DNA from: Thermodesulfobacteriota bacterium
Lineage (GTDB): Bacteria > Desulfobacterota > WTBG01 > CAIYCZ01 > CAIRTM01
DNA: 36,730 nt
NCBI GenBank assembly: GCA_028282925.1
Contig: JANQGV010000022.1
Coordinates: 1 to 36,730 of the forward strand
Direction: 5' to 3'
Shown here: piece after piece, positions 4,495-31,319 of the stretch
Layout of the letters: every line of letters starts with the position of its first letter
How positions within the stretch are numbered: position 1 is the first letter of the stretch
Notes under the pieces: generated by a model
Database searches by the model: none
Told to the model about the DNA's origin: nothing
Seen by the model: only the letters and a program-made list of their open reading frames with translations
Position numbers and translations under genes: made by a program

Positions 4495-7400
4495 CTATAT
4501 TTTTTCCATAACCCATTTCTGGAGCATATCAAACACCACCTCGCGTTTAATGGGTTTGGATATGTAGTCGTTCATGCCGGCATCCAGGCACTTTTCACGG
4601 TCGCCCTTCATGGCATTGGCGGTCATTGCAACAATCGGCACCGTATCAAACCCTTTTTCGCGCAACATGAGCGTTGCATCAATGCCGTTCATCTCCGGCA
4701 TTTGAATGTCCATAAGAATAATATCATACTTGTGGGGATCGGCTTCATACATCTCCATTACTTCTTTGCCGTTTGCCGCCACATCGACGGCATACCCGGC
4801 TTTTTCCAGGAGCTTAACCGCCAGCTTTTGATTAACGGGATTATCCTCCGCCAGCAGTATGGAGGCCGAATGTTTTACTTCCTCCCGCATGGAGTGCTGG
4901 GTAACAATTCGCTGTTTGTGCGCCCTGTGGACGGTATCCTGCCGTGCTTCCCCCATGAGGCGTGCCATCATATTAAAAAGCTTTTCACGTTTAATCGGTT
5001 TGGGAAGAAATCCGTCGAAGCCGCACGCCAGGCATTTTTTTGCACCGCCCTCCGTTGAAGAGGTGAAGGCAAGCAGGGGCAGGTGGTCTCCTACTTCAGA
5101 CCGAACCCGCCGGGCCACTGTATAGCCGTCCATGCCGGGCATCCTGATGTCCAGTACACAGATATCAAAAGGCGTATCAGAACGGGACGCCGCAATAATT
5201 GCTTCCAGAGCCTTCGGCCCCTCGGAAAAAGCCGTCACCTTCATCCCGGCAAATTCCAGATGATGGGCCAGAATCTCGAGATTATGCAGGTTGTCGTCAC
5301 TGATGAGTACCCTGCGGTTTTCCAGGCCCACCGGGGCCAAACGTTTGAAATCCTTGCTGTCCGGCTGATGCAGCCAGGCAACAAAATGAAATGTGCTGCC
5401 CTCCCCTTCCATACTCTCAACCCAGACATCACCCCCCATCAGCAGGGCTATGCGCTTGCAAATCGAAAGGCCCAGACCGGTTCCCCCGAACTTTCTGGTT
5501 GTTGATGAATCGGCCTGCTGAAATACATCGAAAATAGTATCGACTTTTTCCTCCGGAATACCCATTCCCGTATCACGAACCCGGGTATGAATCATAAGCC
5601 GTTCATCTTCCTCTTCCTCAATGTCCATGCTGAGCTCAATTTCGCCCTGGGCCGTAAACTTTGCGGCATTGCCCATGAGGTTGACCAGAACCTGCCGGTA
5701 GCGGTGGGGGTCGCCCTTAACCCGGGCCGGAAGATTGTCGCCGATGCGGCAGAGAATCTCAACCTGGTTGACCGGTATCCGGGGTCGGATCAGCTCACAC
5801 ACATCATAGGCCAGCATTTCAACATCAAAGTCGACACTGTCCAGCGTAATCTTTCCGGCTTCAATTTTAGAAAAATCCAGGATATCGTTTATCAGGGAGA
5901 GCAGGGCCTCGCCGCTACGTTTAATGGTGCGGGCGTAGTCTCTTTGCTCGTCATTGAGGCTGCTTTCCAGCAGCATGTCCGTAAATCCGATAACGCCGTT
6001 CATCGGGGTGCGGATTTCATGGCTCATATTAGCCAGAAACGCACTTTTCGACTGGTTGGCATCTTCTGCGGCCTCCTTTGAACTGATCAGGGCCAGTTCC
6101 GCCTTGCGTTGCTCGGTGATATCGCGCAGAATACAAAAAATGCCGGTCATTTGCCGTTTGTCATCATACAGACAAACGGCGTTCTGCACGGTCGGGATCA
6201 GCTTGCCGTCCGCGTTGCGATAATAGCCTTCCCAGTCCGACAGCTTGCCGTCGGCATACAACTGGTTCAGTTCTTCTTCATTGCGGGTAAAATAACAGGC
6301 ATCTATAACAACATCTTCTCCACTGGCAGACCGAAAAGTGCCTTCCTGCAGTACGGTAAAGTCGTGCAAGGGCCTGCCGGCAACGTCATCGGCCGCATCA
6401 TGCCCCAGCATCTGGTGGAAGGCATTATTGGCCCGGACGATTATACCTTCCCTGTCTGTAATAATGATAGGATCCAGTGAGGTTTCAATGACCTGTTCCA
6501 GATTTTCCTTGGTATGGATAATTTCAAGTTCCGAACGCCGCTGCTCGGTCACATCATGAATGATAACGAATGCAAGGTGGTCCCTGCGGTTTTCGCTATG
6601 CACAAAAACGATATTCCTGGTTACCGGGACGACTTTCTTGTCCTTCCTGACATAGTATCCGAACCAGTTGTACAGCTTCCCTTCAGCCAGCAGTTGTGCA
6701 ATACTTTCTTGCTGTTCCTGCAGAAACGCTTCGTCAATCAGAACCTTTTCGCCGGCGGTGGAATCGTAGGTGCCCGGTTCGGTTACGGCAAATGTGCTCG
6801 ATGGCGCTCCTTTGACCTCTTCCGGGGGATACCCCAACAGGTCGAGAAACGCTTTGTTCGGCTGCAAAATGGTACCTTTGCTGTCGCCGATAATGATCGG
6901 GTCCAGCGAGGTCTCAATCAGGTTCTCCAGATTTTCCTTTGCCATGCGCAGGTCGGTCTCGTTTTTTTGCTGCTGGGTGATATCGCGGATAATACCCAGC
7001 GTGGCGGTCACCTCGCCCTCGTCGTTACACAAAAACACAACGTTTTCAATGACCGGAACAACTTTACCCTCTTTATTGAGCACATAGGTAAACCAGTCGG
7101 AAATCCGTCCGTCCTCAAAAAGCCGTTCAATAGCCTTTTTTGACTGATCGTAAAAATCCTCGCCGATGGTTACCGGTTCGCCCATGGTGGATTCATAGAC
7201 CCCATCGGAAGGTGTTGCTAATTCATGCATCATTTTACCGGCGACTTCTTCCTCACTGTATCCGACCAGCTTTAAAAAAGCTTTATTGGGCCGTCTGATC
7301 CTCCCATCCCGGTCACCGATAATAATGGGATCAAGGGACGCTTCAATCAAATTTTCAAGCTCTTCTTTTGTCTTCTGCACCTCGGAGAGGACCTGCCCGA

Positions 7401-7842
7401 GTTGCTCCTCGGCGCGCTGCCGTTCGGTCAACTCATGTTGAACCCGCAAGGCGAGGTTACGCATATATCCCATAATACCGCCGATCAGGACGATACCGAA
7501 AATGCCCATAACTCCGCCGCCCTGTGAAACAATGTTTTCCAGGAAGTCGGCGCCGATAACCAGGCACATACTGTAATTCAGTAGCGTTCCCAACACCCCG
7601 GCCACGATCCCCGGCACAAATCCGAAAAGAACCGCTACGGCAAAAACCGGCAGGATAACCGCCATCGCCATCCCGGAACCCGACGATTGGGCAATGCCTA
7701 TGAACAGGATGACATACACCAGCAAAGAAACCAGCACGATACCCACCCGCACATCGGTCCTCATCAAAAAATCCCGTCGGGTCGGGGCAGTATCTGTCAC
7801 TGCTCTGTTTGAGTTGTGTGATTCGGCCTGTATCTGGGGCAT
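4495..7842 (-). CDS. Membrane hybrid histidine kinase: 4TM-PAS-PAS-PAS-HisKA-HATPase-REC-REC
   Basis: 1115 residues from the ATG at 7842. Four hydrophobic segments (about 32-50, 58-75, 78-97, 111-127) are followed by a short coiled coil. Three tandem PAS units then start near 162, 305 and 448; each of the first two is exactly 143 residues including its linker. The HisKA box SHEIRTPMNG holds the phospho-acceptor H608. The ATPase has MGNAAKF (N box), DTGMGIP and a GGTGLGLS box. Two receivers follow with acceptor Asp near 898 (LDIRMPGMDG) and 1045 (MDIQMPEMNG), both with the terminal K-P. The longer frame to 8004 would add 54 residues from very AT-rich, promoter-like DNA, so I reject it, although the ribosome site before 7842 is weak. 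Input signal is unknown. Confidence 0.9.
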   Translation of the reverse strand: MPQIQAESHNSNRAVTDTAPTRRDFLMRTDVRVGIVLVSLLVYVILFIGIAQSSGSGMAMAVILPVFAVAVLFGFVPGIVAGVLGTLLNYSMCLVIGADFLENIVSQGGGVMGIFGIVLIGGIMGYMRNLALRVQHELTERQRAEEQLGQVLSEVQKTKEELENLIEASLDPIIIGDRDGRIRRPNKAFLKLVGYSEEEVAGKMMHELATPSDGVYESTMGEPVTIGEDFYDQSKKAIERLFEDGRISDWFTYVLNKEGKVVPVIENVVFLCNDEGEVTATLGIIRDITQQQKNETDLRMAKENLENLIETSLDPIIIGDSKGTILQPNKAFLDLLGYPPEEVKGAPSSTFAVTEPGTYDSTAGEKVLIDEAFLQEQQESIAQLLAEGKLYNWFGYYVRKDKKVVPVTRNIVFVHSENRRDHLAFVIIHDVTEQRRSELEIIHTKENLEQVIETSLDPIIITDREGIIVRANNAFHQMLGHDAADDVAGRPLHDFTVLQEGTFRSASGEDVVIDACYFTRNEEELNQLYADGKLSDWEGYYRNADGKLIPTVQNAVCLYDDKRQMTGIFCILRDITEQRKAELALISSKEAAEDANQSKSAFLANMSHEIRTPMNGVIGFTDMLLESSLNDEQRDYARTIKRSGEALLSLINDILDFSKIEAGKITLDSVDFDVEMLAYDVCELIRPRIPVNQVEILCRIGDNLPARVKGDPHRYRQVLVNLMGNAAKFTAQGEIELSMDIEEEEDERLMIHTRVRDTGMGIPEEKVDTIFDVFQQADSSTTRKFGGTGLGLSICKRIALLMGGDVWVESMEGEGSTFHFVAWLHQPDSKDFKRLAPVGLENRRVLISDDNLHNLEILAHHLEFAGMKVTAFSEGPKALEAIIAASRSDTPFDICVLDIRMPGMDGYTVARRVRSEVGDHLPLLAFTSSTEGGAKKCLACGFDGFLPKPIKREKLFNMMARLMGEARQDTVHRAHKQRIVTQHSMREEVKHSASILLAEDNPVNQKLAVKLLEKAGYAVDVAANGKEVMEMYEADPHKYDIILMDIQMPEMNGIDATLMLREKGFDTVPIVAMTANAMKGDREKCLDAGMNDYISKPIKREVVFDMLQKWVMEKI

Positions 7843-8164
7843 GAATTTTCCCGGTAAGCGAATAAATAGTAGTATTGCATTGTTTTTATTATCAAAAGCT
7901 ATAAAAATCAATATAAATTTTGATATATTTTGATATAATCCATCTGAAAACACATGGCCCTGAACAGAGGGCACTATCGGCGGGGAAAACAGGGATCGTA
8001 ACAAAACAAACTCAGAAGCAAAAAATGCCGTGGAGTATACCCGGTGTACACCACATATGTCACCCAGGTCGGGCTCAGGATAAAACAGCAGCCTGGGAGA
8101 AGATGCCGAAATAACGCTTCAAAAGACGGACTGCCGCAGACGGGTGGCCTCCCGTGGCAACCCA
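7843..8164. other. Intergenic region upstream of the hybrid kinase
   Basis: The part nearest the kinase (7860-7940) is very AT-rich and probably holds its promoter. A perfect palindrome GGTGTACACC lies at 8043-8052, a possible operator or the far end of the nitroreductase transcript. No convincing gene in either strand. Confidence 0.4.
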
Positions 8165-8698
8165 TCACCTTTTATAGCTGTTGAACCAGGCCCGCTCTTC
8201 AAACGGCTTTTTCTCTTTGCGCGGCACAACCTCCTCCGGGATGCCGATCGGCAGCAGAACGCGAATAATTTTTTCCCGGGGGAGATCCAGGGCTTTCCCG
8301 ATACGCTCTGCATGGTCTTCCAGCCGCAACCAGCCGTCAATCCACACGGTTGCATATCCCAGGGCCGTTACCGCCAGCAGGATATTTTCTACTGCGGCGG
8401 CACAATCTTCGATCTGAAACGAATGCCCATGATACACCGGCTCAGGATCTTTATCAATAACACATGCAATAAAAGCCCGGGCCTGCCGCATGGCGACATT
8501 GGATTGATGCAGGGCATTCATCATGTTTACCAGTTCCGGATCGTCGACAATAACAAACGTTGTGCTCTGCAGGTTCTTGCCCGACGGGGCCTGGAGGCCC
8601 GCCTGCACAATGCGCCTGAGGTCCACCCGGGGAACCGGTTTGTCTTGAAACACCCCTCGATAGCTGAGCCGGCGGGTAATGGCGTCAAACACGTCCAT
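8165..8698 (-). CDS. Nitroreductase family FMN protein
   Basis: A 177-residue member of the nitroreductase fold, which uses FMN and NAD(P)H to reduce varied substrates. Visible are the amino-terminal RRLSYRGVFQDKPV segment (family R-x-S-x-R), APSGKNLQ (the family's A-P-S-x-x-N-x-Q FMN contact), and the central IEDCAAAVENILLAVTALGY helix, typical of the dimer interface. It ends in the family's pattern R-V-L-L-P-I-G-I-P-E. GAGAGG precedes the ATG. It follows lexA by 48 bases on the same strand, so it may be co-transcribed and induced with the SOS response; this is inference. Physiological substrate unknown. Confidence 0.88.
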   Translation of the reverse strand: MDVFDAITRRLSYRGVFQDKPVPRVDLRRIVQAGLQAPSGKNLQSTTFVIVDDPELVNMMNALHQSNVAMRQARAFIACVIDKDPEPVYHGHSFQIEDCAAAVENILLAVTALGYATVWIDGWLRLEDHAERIGKALDLPREKIIRVLLPIGIPEEVVPRKEKKPFEERAWFNSYKR

Positions 8699-11313: not shown

Positions 11314-11366
11314 GGAGCGCAATCCCGATATGATCGGGATAGATGGGTATTCTCCGGCAGTCTCCT
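11314..11366 (-). repeat. Dispersed repeat family R, right-end fragment R7
   Basis: The text GGAGCGCAATCCCGATATGA..GATAGATGGGTATTCTCCGGCAG matches the right end of the family, in which the usual AACGCCGTAGATGG is replaced by a small TCCCGAT/ATCGGGA hairpin. Copy R6 (32101-32173) has the same variant. It abuts the stop codon of the lipoprotein gene. Confidence 0.6.
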
Positions 11367-11910
11367 ATCCTTCACCGGTGGTCTTGGCAATATTGATTTT
11401 GGTTGCTCCAGACTCCGGCATGATGCTCAGGTTCAGGTGCGCCGATCCCTTCTTGCCCTGCAGCATCACCATACCGCCCACGCTCATTTCACCGCCGACA
11501 GCCCATCCCTTTTCCTGTAAAGTTTTCTTGTAGAATGCGGCGACCTTTGCGGGTGCATCACCGGTGCTTAATGTGGCCATAGCGTTTTGACCACCCTTAA
11601 ACACCTGGTTCATAACAATGTCCGACGGCTCATATATGGGGATGTCCACCGGGAAATCCTTTGTAAGAGTATCTTTATTATAGGCTACTTCAATATCATC
11701 GCCGTCTTCGGTTGTGATCTTGATGTGCCCTGCATTTTCATTGCCCTTAATGACCACTGAGCCGTCCTGGCTGGTTACGCTGATACCGCTGCCGTCTTCC
11801 TGAACGCTTAACGTGCCTTCAGGGGTTTCTATCGACTGTTCGTCGCTGCATGATGCAACGGCAAACACAATTGCGATGATGAGTGCTGCGTATTGTATTG
11901 AAAAGGCCAT
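11365..11910 (-). CDS. Lipoprotein of unknown function
   Basis: 181 residues with a lipoprotein signal: a hydrophobic stretch and the lipobox VASC with Cys21 as the likely lipid anchor. A repetitive, Asp/Gly-rich middle (about 25-80) looks like short beta hairpins (SVQEDGSGISVTSQDGSVVI). A C-terminal domain follows, with the pattern DFPVDIPIYEPSD and later AAFYKKTLQEKGW. That FY..L...GW pattern recurs, as I recall, in small exported proteins of this phylum, but I cannot name the function. AAGGAGG precedes the ATG. It lies 28 bases downstream of another exported protein and is probably in one operon with it. Confidence 0.8.
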   Translation of the reverse strand: MAFSIQYAALIIAIVFAVASCSDEQSIETPEGTLSVQEDGSGISVTSQDGSVVIKGNENAGHIKITTEDGDDIEVAYNKDTLTKDFPVDIPIYEPSDIVMNQVFKGGQNAMATLSTGDAPAKVAAFYKKTLQEKGWAVGGEMSVGGMVMLQGKKGSAHLNLSIMPESGATKINIAKTTGEG

Positions 11911-12870: not shown

Positions 12871-13000
12871 TGGGGAAACAATAGAATTTACAAATCATGT
12901 ATTCAATGTTAGAATATTTTAACATACAGCTACAAAAACTAGGATACAGATAACAGAAGTAACACGCTGGAGTAAGCAACAAAGAAGGAGGCGATTACAC

Positions 13001-14083
13001 ATGAATCTGTTGAAGAACATCGGCAAAACAGTTCTTGCTGCGCTGCTGGTCCTCTGCATATCCGGATTCCCACCGGTATACAGTGCCGACAAAAGCCCTG
13101 CAGCCGACACAGCAAAAAAGGCTCCGAAAATTCAGTTTGATGAAAAGCAGCACGATTTCGGAAAACATCCTCAGAATGCTAAATTAAAACATACCTTCAC
13201 TTTCAAAAATACCGGAGAGGACACCCTGTTCATTGAAAAAGTAAAGGCCGGCTGAGGCTGCACCGCAGCCCTGGCCTCAGCCAAGGAAATTCCCCCGGGC
13301 GGGGAAGGAAAAATAGACGTTACATTTAAGGTCGGTTCAAAGGGAGGAAAAAGCCAAAAAACCATCACGGTTCAAACCAATGACCCGGCTCAGAAAACCG
13401 TTAAACTGAAGGTAATAGCTACGGTTCAGGTTCTTCTAGCGACTACTCCGAGCCGGCTTAATTTCGGACATGTTAAAAAAGGCACCACCGTTACAAAGTA
13501 CATTTCCCTGACCGGAGAAGAAAAAGACAAGGCGAAAATAACCTCTGTAAAATCAAAGAATGATTTTATTAAAGTAGAAACAAATCCCGAAGGCTACCAG
13601 AACAACAAGGCAAAGCAGGTTAAAATCACCATACTGCCGGGCATGAAGGTGGGCCGTTTCAGAGAACGGGTCAACATTACGACCGATCATGAAAAAGCCG
13701 GCAAAATCAATGTCTATGTTTTCGGCGAAGTTATCGGCAATATTAAAGTCCAGCCGAATTACGTTTCCCTGGGGACTCTTAAAAAGGGCAAAGCTGTAGA
13801 AAAAACGATTAAAGTAAATGCAACCGGTGACACCCCTTTTAAAATCCTGGACGTCTCCAGCTCGGAAAAGGAAATTAAAACAGCCCTTGAAACCGTTAAA
13901 GAGGGGAAAGAGTATCTGGTAAAACTTATTCTGCCGGAGACGTATACACGGCCTCTGGCAAAGGGGACCGTCACCATAAAAACCGACGATAAAGAACAGG
14001 AAGAGATCCAGGTCCGCTTTTTCGGCCGGTCCCATGTACAGCGCAAAAAAACAAAACCGCCGGAAAAAAAGCCTAAAAAATAG
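13001..14083 (+). CDS. Exported DUF1573-type protein with in-frame UGA (probable selenoprotein)
   Basis: A 360-codon frame with a single internal TGA (13253-13255, codon 85) and otherwise no stop. AAGGAGG precedes the ATG. A Sec signal peptide ends near VYSA (residue 29). The first Ig-like domain (about 40-130) carries the DUF1573 pattern: HDFGK, FTFKNTGEDTLFIEKV, then the place where the family has S-C-G-C-T, then IPPGGEGKIDVTF. Here that motif reads A-G-(UGA)-G-C-T, so the UGA replaces exactly the first Cys, leaving Cys87. Two more Ig-like repeats follow (about 145-235 and 245-340), with a Lys-rich tail. Full coding capacity resumes directly after the UGA, in frame. I infer selenocysteine forming a U-x-C redox pair in the periplasm; a nonsense mutation is the alternative. 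Confidence 0.75.
13250..13306 (+). promoter_or_regulatory. Possible bacterial SECIS region after the UGA
   Basis: GGCTGAGGC (13250-13258, containing the UGA) pairs perfectly with GCCTCAGCC (13274-13282). A competing hairpin GGCTGC/GCAGCC lies at 13256-13270. A second hairpin, TTCCCC/GGGGAA (13290-13306), has loop CGGGC with a G in second place, as bSECIS models like. However, its loop begins about 40 bases after the UGA, slightly beyond the usual 16-37. The region is strongly structured, but I cannot pick the true element by eye. Confidence 0.4.
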
Positions 14084-14110
14084 ATGGTTACCCTAAATCT
14101 ACGGCAGCCG

Positions 14111-14141
14111 AAAAGCGTTCTCGCACGAGAGCGCTTTTTTT
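14111..14141 (+). terminator. Rho-independent terminator after the DUF1573 gene
   Basis: AGCGTTCTCG pairs with CGAGAGCGCT (one T.G pair) around a tight CA centre, followed by seven T residues. It lies 28 bases after the TAG at 14083. Confidence 0.85.
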
Positions 14142-14188
14142 ATTGAGCGTTCCTTTCCCCTCCCCGCACTATGTATTATTTTTTTTAC

Positions 14189-14262: not shown

Positions 14263-14889
14263 ATGGAAGACGACAAAAAACATCGCATTCTGGAAAGTGC
14301 TACCAAGGTTTTCGCCGAAAAGGGCTACCAGTACGCAACTATTTCTGAAATAGCCAAAGAAGCCGGGATTTCAACCGGACTCACCTACTCATACTTTGCC
14401 AACAAGCTCGACGTGCTGCTCTCTATTATCCTCATTTTTCTCGAAACCATCAACAGCCGCAATAAAAAAAGCCTTACCGCCGCAGTTGCTCCCCTTGATA
14501 AACTCTATACGGTTATGCATAACTTTGAAGACTTGCTTATCAAGGACATGAAGGCGCTGTACCTCGTAAAAGTGTTGAACGAAGCACTGCCGCATATCGT
14601 TATGATAAAAGATAAAAAACTGCAGGAAAAAAGGAAAAAGATTATTCTGGAGAATAAAAGCCTGATAAAAACCATTGACGACATCCTGGCCCATGGTCAA
14701 AAAAAGGGCGTCTTCAGCAAAACCCTGAAACCAAGTGTGCAGCGGCAGGTTCTGTGCGGCGCAATTGAGCGGGTCATCTATGGTCTCTTTTTCACAACCT
14801 ACAGCGGCGAAGATATCGGCTACTCCACCAACGATGCACATGAAGCGATAATTCAACTCATCGACAGTTTTATCTGCACAAAAAGATGA
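14263..14889 (+). CDS. TetR family transcriptional regulator
   Basis: 208 residues. The amino-terminal HTH is canonical: ILESATKVFAEKGYQYATIS, then EIAKEAGISTGLTYSYFANK, where the recognition helix contains S-x-G-x-x-Y-x-Y-F. The remaining residues (about 60-208) form the variable helical ligand-binding and dimer domain, so the inducer cannot be predicted. A GAGG lies about 11 bases before the ATG. Operators O1 and O2 flank the gene, which identifies its probable target as itself and the methyltransferase/ATPase/VWA operon downstream. A terminator-like hairpin separates it from that operon. Confidence 0.92.
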   Translation: MEDDKKHRILESATKVFAEKGYQYATISEIAKEAGISTGLTYSYFANKLDVLLSIILIFLETINSRNKKSLTAAVAPLDKLYTVMHNFEDLLIKDMKALYLVKVLNEALPHIVMIKDKKLQEKRKKIILENKSLIKTIDDILAHGQKKGVFSKTLKPSVQRQVLCGAIERVIYGLFFTTYSGEDIGYSTNDAHEAIIQLIDSFICTKR

Positions 14890-29718: not shown

Positions 29719-30921
29719 TTAGGCAAACAATGTGTGTGCATACCTCATCCGCTCCTTCAAGTTGATACCATTGCTGCACCTGCAGGTCGGCGCATCACAC
29801 TCCAAGCACATCCGGGCGTACACACCGCTCGGCAAATCATTATACGCGGCTTTGCCGAATGCAAAATCACCATAGCCTTCATAATACATCAGGGCCCGGT
29901 TCACATCGGGAATCGAAACCCCCTTGGCGCAGGTGCCGTCACAACCGCCGCACCTGACACACAGGCGGTCCCGTACCGATTCGTAGTATGACGCCAGGGT
30001 TTTACGGGCGGCCCAGCCCGTTTTCGTTTCAAGGGCGGCAATGTTTTCATGGAGTTCCCGCCGGTTGACCATTCCGGGGATCGAACAATCCACAAACGGC
30101 TGGTCAAGGGACCAGCGCAGGGCTGCCTGGTGCGGATTAAGACCGGGGTGTTTCGGCTCGGCATAGCCCCCGGCCTGGGTCTTCATGGCAACGATACCGA
30201 TATTGCGCTTCCTGGCCCGGTTCAGTGCCGTCAGGTGCGACTGGGGACTCTTGAAATTAAGGGTGGCCAGATACACATCATAGATGTCGGTCTGGAGCGC
30301 CTTATCGACAATGTTCACATAATATTCACCGGAGGCATGAAAACTGATACCCACGAACCGCGCCTTTCCCTTCTTCCGTGCCTGTTCGGCAAAAGCCATA
30401 AGGTCCTGGTGCAGCGACCATCCCGGCTCTTTGATATTATGTAGAAACAGAACATCCACATAATCGGTTTGCAGCCGTTTCAGGCTTTCATCCAGCAGCT
30501 TTTCCATGGAGGCTTTGTCGCGCAGCAGCATACCCAGGGACGCCCGGTAAAAGGGCGGTATCTTTGTTGCCACATACACTTTCTGCCGCCCGTACTGCTT
30601 CAGAACCTTTCCCAGCATCTTCTCGTTATTACCGCCCTGGTAGCTATGAGCCGTATCAAAAAAGTTGATACCCCGATCAAGGGCTTCATGCAGCACAGCC
30701 GGTTCCCCCAGCCGCATCACCCCGAAACTGACCGCCGAAACCTTCAGACCGGTCCGGCCCAGGGTACGGTACTCCATCGATGTTGTGCCGGCCGCTTTAG
30801 CAGCCGGGCGACCTTTGCCGAAAACATTCCGCGGCGTCAGGTTGTTCACAGCCAGCCCTGCGCAGCCTGCCAGCGTCATGTTTCTGATAAACGTCCGACG
30901 GGACAGAGATTTTTTAAACAT
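29719..30921 (-). CDS. Tat-exported aldo/keto reductase with ferredoxin-type Cys motif
   Basis: 400 residues. Tat signal SRRTFIRN (7-14) precedes a hydrophobic stretch. The AKR barrel (about 50-300) keeps the catalytic tetrad: Asp89 and Tyr94 (FFDTAHSYQ), Lys120 (VATK) and His161 (LFLHNI). After the barrel come Cys321, 324, 327 and 331 (C-x2-C-x2-C-x3-C), the [4Fe-4S] ferredoxin pattern, then a second Cys-rich stretch CLECDAPTCRC near 375. It is likely a periplasmic redox enzyme delivering electrons between a cluster and a flavin- or NADPH-like cofactor; substrate unknown. AAGGAG precedes the ATG. Confidence 0.9.
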   Translation of the reverse strand: MFKKSLSRRTFIRNMTLAGCAGLAVNNLTPRNVFGKGRPAAKAAGTTSMEYRTLGRTGLKVSAVSFGVMRLGEPAVLHEALDRGINFFDTAHSYQGGNNEKMLGKVLKQYGRQKVYVATKIPPFYRASLGMLLRDKASMEKLLDESLKRLQTDYVDVLFLHNIKEPGWSLHQDLMAFAEQARKKGKARFVGISFHASGEYYVNIVDKALQTDIYDVYLATLNFKSPQSHLTALNRARKRNIGIVAMKTQAGGYAEPKHPGLNPHQAALRWSLDQPFVDCSIPGMVNRRELHENIAALETKTGWAARKTLASYYESVRDRLCVRCGGCDGTCAKGVSIPDVNRALMYYEGYGDFAFGKAAYNDLPSGVYARMCLECDAPTCRCSNGINLKERMRYAHTLFA

Positions 30922-31319
30922 ACCCTTACTCCTTATCGGTTTGGTAGATTGTAAAAGCTGAAAACATGGTGCACGTAAACAACCGTCTCAAAGAGCCCGG
31001 CTTGGTTTTTCGGACTTTGGCCCAAGAACCAACGTCCATGAAAGTGGGTGGCTTCCTTTTGCCTCCTTGCGAAAAGCGCACGGTTTCCAGCATATAATGA
31101 CTACTGTATAGAACAAAAAAAGGCGAGTTGCAATTTATTAACCAAGAAAGCATAGAGCCGCTTAAAAACGATCGGATGCGTGAGTTGATAAAGGATAAAA
31201 TGTTATTTGATAAAATACAGGCCGGGATGAACCGGATCTGAACGGGCTCCGTGATTGACACCGGTAGCGGGTTTTGGAACACATTACCCTTATCAGGATA
31301 TACAGGAAGCGAAATGTGC
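30922..31319. other. 398-bp intergenic region with structured segment
   Basis: On the minus strand about 31085-30985 contains AAGGAGGCAAAAGGAAGCCA, then a hairpin GGAC-TTGG/CCAA-GTCC, then AAGCCGGGCTCTTTGAG. That last piece equals the left arm and loop of the ilvD terminator but lacks the right arm. It looks like a decayed or unassigned RNA element. The frame 30926-31330 through it shows no family features. Confidence 0.35.

Follow-up and report, generated by a model that had tools for sequence, protein, structure and literature searches.

A DUF1573 gene with an in-frame UGA from a Thermodesulfobacteriota genome as a further member of a known family of exported 'UGC' selenoproteins

The gene considered here lies in a 36,730-nt stretch of DNA from a Thermodesulfobacteriota bacterium (below, the window means this whole stretch), and its reading frame contains a single TGA. 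The question is whether this codon marks a broken gene or is read as selenocysteine (Sec) and, in the latter case, what kind of protein is made. As the initial annotation had pointed out, the frame stays open for 275 codons after the TGA, which is codon 85. It ends with the stop codon TAG. The encoded protein matches the Pfam domain DUF1573 (PF07610; E-value 8e-39, 132.1 bits against a cut-off of 26.1) in three stretches, the best one covering residues 44-140, and the match extends beyond the TGA. The features of the locus are listed in Table 1.

Table 1. Features of the DUF1573 locus (positions in the window)
Feature	Position	Strand	Remark
Sigma-70-like promoter candidate, TTTACA-17-TAGAAT, extended -10	12887..12915	+	consensus match only
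Shine-Dalgarno sequence AAGGAGG, 9 nt before ATG	12985..12991	+	sequence
CDS, DUF1573 / OS_HP2-family selenoprotein with three Ig-like domains; 360 residues when UGA is taken as Sec	13001..14083	+	
Probable signal peptide (MNLLKNIGKTVLAALLVLCISGFPPVYSA)	13001..13087	+	cleavage site judged by eye
In-frame UGA (Sec85), which opens the U-G-C motif	13253..13255	+	
TGC codon of Cys87, the partner of Sec85 and, besides it, the sole Cys/Sec beyond the signal peptide	13259..13261	+	
Bacterial SECIS hairpin	13269..13286	+	arms 13269-13275 and 13280-13286
Intrinsic terminator, strong hairpin + T run	14110..14142	+	z -4.7

The initial annotation had placed the TGA at the first Cys of an S-C-G-C-T motif, with a second Cys two codons downstream. 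Both positions are borne out, and homologues have either TGA or a Cys codon at this place, while the residue before the motif is Gly (GUGCT) rather than Ser. In particular, TGA occupies precisely the codon for the first Cys of CGC in 45 of 58 gene copies retrieved in the phylum search and in 65 of the 80 loci of named genomes. After removal of duplicates these yield 84 distinct Sec genes, from Desulfobacterota, Myxococcota, Zixibacteria, Gemmatimonadota and CSSED10-310 MAGs, and the remaining homologues have Cys at the same codon. Some genomes contain two or three Sec copies of DUF1573. One further DUF1573 gene (L082 in genome G158, reverse strand, approximately 2136-2738) has the UGA at the usual place and Val instead of the second Cys (PCUGV); this may be a frameshift or a real variant, and the gene, having UGV for UGC, is excluded from the Sec counts.

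The genome of the window also encodes a Cys paralogue (G000:C9:9130-10074), with TGC at the corresponding codon, that is 48% identical over a gap-free alignment of 299 residues. Its locus (L060, G000:C9:6326-10074) is divergent from a pair of yedF-like and selD genes, this selD having a UGA of its own. In a maximum-likelihood tree of 106 homologues, built by a quick method and with many weak branches, 11 exchanges between Sec and Cys, counted irrespective of direction, are needed, and at least six of them are forced by well-supported branches.

A pseudogene or a sequencing error, with the TGA being a nonsense mutation or a miscalled TGC or TGT, would also leave the frame interrupted by one TGA only, but it is excluded for practical purposes by the recurrence of the TGA in the 84 distinct homologues across phyla, by the near absence of other stops in them, by purifying selection downstream of the UGA (pN well below pS, with pS near saturation) and by a hairpin tied to the TGA. 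The frame beyond the UGA is kept in relatives, instead of being decayed elsewhere as the initial annotation had considered.

The hairpin was analyzed in the subfamily of the window gene, using 18 Sec and 11 Cys genes with the same spacing. When all registers are searched, the best stem spans positions +16 to +33 from the U of the UGA. In this stem, 93% of cells are paired in the Sec genes, compared to 39% in the Cys genes, and synonymous-codon randomization of the same proteins gives 71 ± 2.7% (0.71 ± 0.027), with none of 5000 draws being as high as the observed value. Moreover, among the 15 most similar distinct Sec sequences, 14 cells are changed on both sides of the stem, compared to 4.8 after shuffling (0 of 500 as high), and the covariation is poorer in every slid register. 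The hairpin energies are mostly between -9 and -15 kcal/mol in the Sec genes and between -1 and -6 kcal/mol in the Cys genes, the value for the window being -7.6 kcal/mol. The stem is weaker in the subfamily with one codon fewer (69% paired versus 64% shuffled).

The published limits for bacterial SECIS elements are a spacing of 16-37 nt, a stem of 4-16 bp and a minimum free energy (MFE) not exceeding -7.5, with G within the first two loop positions (PMC13188914). The hairpin of the window has one C.A mismatch (13271/13284), common to two close relatives. Read as a 5-bp stem with one mismatch, its apical loop begins with G13274, 18 nt after the UGA, and it falls within these limits, marginally so for the MFE; the same hairpin is fully paired and covarying in most relatives. 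The plain MFE fold of 61 nt has a z-score of -1.5, and an alternative pairing involves the UGA itself; given both, single-sequence folding is left out of the evidence.

The machinery for Sec insertion, which the initial annotation had suggested looking for, is complete in the genome of the window. The gene for tRNA-Sec (selC; 79 bits, anticodon UCA) adjoins selA on one contig, and the genome also has selB and a selD with an in-frame TGA of its own. SelA is found in 36 of the 39 genomes with the UGA form of DUF1573, and the remaining three score above 72 bits for tRNA-Sec and possess SelB (intact in two of them, in pieces on several contigs in G170). In four other SelA-less genomes SelB is below the cut-off and the best tRNA-Sec scores are no better than those of background tRNAs, and these genomes have only Cys forms of DUF1573. 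One of these four genomes, from the same family as the window (G034), lacks SelA, SelB and tRNA-Sec alike and has DUF1573 as two Cys copies, with no Sec copy. This comparison is informative in one direction only, since 22 of the 26 genomes with only Cys forms have SelA as well.

One of the UGA-form genomes without SelA leaves some room for another amino acid at the UGA, either by genome-wide reassignment of this codon or by readthrough in which another tRNA places Trp or Cys. It is a complete genome of 2.54 Mb from the same phylum (G038, loci L193-L196) with UGA-form DUF1573, full-length SelB and tRNA-Sec(UCA). It shows no match to SelA or SepSecS and only a sub-cut-off match to SepCysS, and it also encodes a 91-nt tRNA-Cys(GCA) that has a long variable arm and reaches a score of 66 bits as tRNA-Sec. 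The amino acid loaded there is uncertain, and Cys may be inserted instead of Sec. For the gene in the window, reassignment or readthrough is nevertheless very improbable: UGA is a normal stop in its genome (5 of the 24 genes in the window end in TGA), the set of selC, selA, selB and selD is complete, and this Cys is the only one replaced by UGA.

Hence, the Sec genes in the genome, Cys at codon 85 in homologues, UGA in relatives and the covarying hairpin agree in supporting the Sec reading proposed in the initial annotation. We assign a probability of about 0.95 to the window gene being a Sec-containing member of the exported DUF1573 'UGC' family (OS_HP2, NF041425), this value covering the identity of the gene as such a member and not its redox role. 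It is strongly supported that SelB and tRNA-Sec would decode the UGA as Sec with the help of the SECIS hairpin. Two other frames in the window extended through a TGA were considered and rejected, an HK frame (4495-8355) and an aldo/keto reductase frame (29719-31116): in both, the text past the TGA is out of the domain and there is a natural start downstream.

The DUF1573 selenoprotein is predicted to be an exported, periplasmic protein, as a hydrophobic N-terminal segment is present in 81 of the 84 Sec homologues. The AlphaFold2 model (mean pLDDT 88) is all-beta, and in it the protein would fold with high confidence into three Ig-like sandwiches, with residue 85 in a turn of domain 1 between strands 76-83 and 87-91. 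No Cys/Sec residues other than U85 and C87 are conserved, and 49 of the 84 Sec proteins have no Cys or Sec from Sec85 to the C-terminus beyond this pair. Instead of a thioredoxin fold with CxxC, the model has three Ig domains and U-x-C, and the protein stands outside the thioredoxin fold family, though it may work like a thiol-disulfide oxidoreductase.

A U-x-C pair in a presumably periplasmic protein points to reversible selenenylsulfide chemistry. Judging from the motif and from the gene context of distant relatives, the protein probably serves in thiol/selenol redox exchange in the periplasm, without a thioredoxin fold. With somewhat better than even probability, Sec85 and Cys87 would cycle between the selenol/thiol and selenenylsulfide states, exchanging disulfides with, or reducing, an envelope protein or a small oxidant.

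The relevant context is that five distant Sec members (L133, L138, L142, L182 and L189) lie no more than five genes from one for a DsbD_TM or DsbD_2 membrane protein, and in most of these loci a thioredoxin-like gene stands beside the DsbD-type gene. Given 0-3 DsbD_TM genes per genome, approximately 0.5 such loci are expected; the association was noticed in hindsight, and two of its loci are close kin. We treat this adjacency as a lead, according to which electrons may come from DsbD/CcdA-type membrane thiol carriers. Two of these loci, from Zixibacteria MAGs (L133 and L138), have, together with Sec-DUF1573, genes for a membrane protein of the DsbD_2 type, an exported thioredoxin-like protein and an ArsC-like protein, and L133 has in addition ArsR-like and small thioredoxin genes; this context suggests a link to arsenic or metal stress.

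A different context is observed in Syntrophobacteraceae, where in approximately 14 loci the Sec gene follows genes for CtpA (S41) and Polysacc_deac_2 and ends the operon, with an M23 peptidase/EnvC-like gene further upstream. This organization would place Sec-DUF1573 at the cell wall in that family. It also favors the alternative that Sec is inserted but takes no part in redox exchange, with structural Ig domains in which U-G-C is a metal or ligand site or an anchoring selenenylsulfide, and with a role in cell-wall remodelling in Syntrophobacteraceae; Ig folds, moreover, often bind other proteins. This alternative opposes only the functional half of the preferred reading, and we regard it as unlikely, though it is by far the most serious of the competing explanations, since a position that alternates between U and C, with another Cys close by, is typical of redox pairs, and distant members have DsbD and thioredoxin neighbors. 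A broader form of the redox reading, that Ig-domain 'UGC' proteins are widespread periplasmic selenol/thiol exchangers reduced by DsbD/CcdA and acting in part with cell-wall remodelling enzymes, is more doubtful still.

The DUF1573 gene in the window has no redox gene (DsbD/CcdA or thioredoxin) next to it, and no cell-wall context there either. The promoter-like site approximately 85 nt upstream and the terminator, which is absent from the pattern-scan listing, make it probable that the gene is transcribed alone. The genes around it are ilvD, a lipoprotein-like gene encoded on the opposite strand, and a gene for a TetR regulator, behind which lie those for a MoxR-type ATPase and a VWA protein. 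The small divergent lipoprotein-like gene (11365-11910, minus strand), located upstream of Sec-DUF1573, is kept in six loci of the same clade and matches no family above the cut-off. Clustering of neighbors in the window's own clade finds the TetR gene (14263-14889) near Sec-DUF1573 in four loci and yields no function for the DUF1573 gene. A search of the window against Rfam gives nothing at gathering thresholds, and its DNA has no match in the plasmid collection.

The initial annotation had regarded a periplasmic U-x-C protein of this type as an unusual selenoprotein, which does not hold, as a DUF1573 'UGC' family has been published and has an NCBIfam model. An entry 'DUF1573 domain-containing protein, UGC' is catalogued in reviews, which give as its source the 2007 survey of Olavius algarvensis symbionts (PMC9312934, PMC13188914); the selenoprotein comes from the Delta 1 symbiont (Zhang & Gladyshev 2007, as cited in PMC9312934, PMC13188914 and PMC2398784). 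The ocean (GOS) survey lists the family as OS_HP2 (pfam07610, UxC) with two Sec sequences (PMC2398784). With the model NF041425, 'OS_HP2 family (seleno)protein', the protein in the window reaches 103.9 bits, the cut-off being 100. Judged by its sequence, the gene is therefore a well-supported new member of an already known selenoprotein family and not a discovery. The record for this genome, in which ordinary annotation would label the gene truncated or a pseudogene, is corrected.

What the present analysis adds is the wide distribution of the family across Desulfobacterota and nearby phyla with repeated exchange of Sec and Cys, the Cys-only copies in a close relative lacking the Sec machinery, the U-x-C motif as the sole conserved Cys/Sec pair, and the distant Sec members adjoining DsbD/CcdA and thioredoxin genes. 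A family formerly backed by few sequences thus appears as common and evolutionarily labile in Desulfobacterota and neighboring phyla. The clean contrast between SECIS regions of Sec and Cys genes makes it a natural system for the rise and decay of bacterial SECIS elements within coding sequence, and, if the redox role is true, the protein would represent a redox enzyme built on an Ig fold and centered on selenium.

Among known systems, thiol-disulfide exchange by CXC motifs (Woycechowsky & Raines 2003, cited in PMC2672033) resembles the U-x-C pair in having two reactive residues one residue apart, but it belongs to designed or other-fold contexts that are non-homologous to the protein in the window. 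The Ig domains of the HYDIN/CFA65/ASH type, known from proteins of the cilium central apparatus, have the Ig-like sandwich fold in common with it, but belong to eukaryotic cytoplasmic scaffold proteins, and the common fold is no evidence of a common function. Among solved structures, PDB 2qsv, an uncharacterised protein from Porphyromonas gingivalis W83, is the nearest in sequence to the Ig-like domain (E-value 3.7e-5); it also matches in fold but, unlike the protein in the window, has neither CGC at the aligned position nor Sec. The OS_HP2 family itself (NF041425) agrees in the DUF1573 domain, in the UGA at the first Cys of U-G-C and in having Cys homologues, with at least 84 Sec sequences in the present analysis compared to two in the GOS survey. 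The copy in the window differs from it in nothing of substance and is another member of this family.
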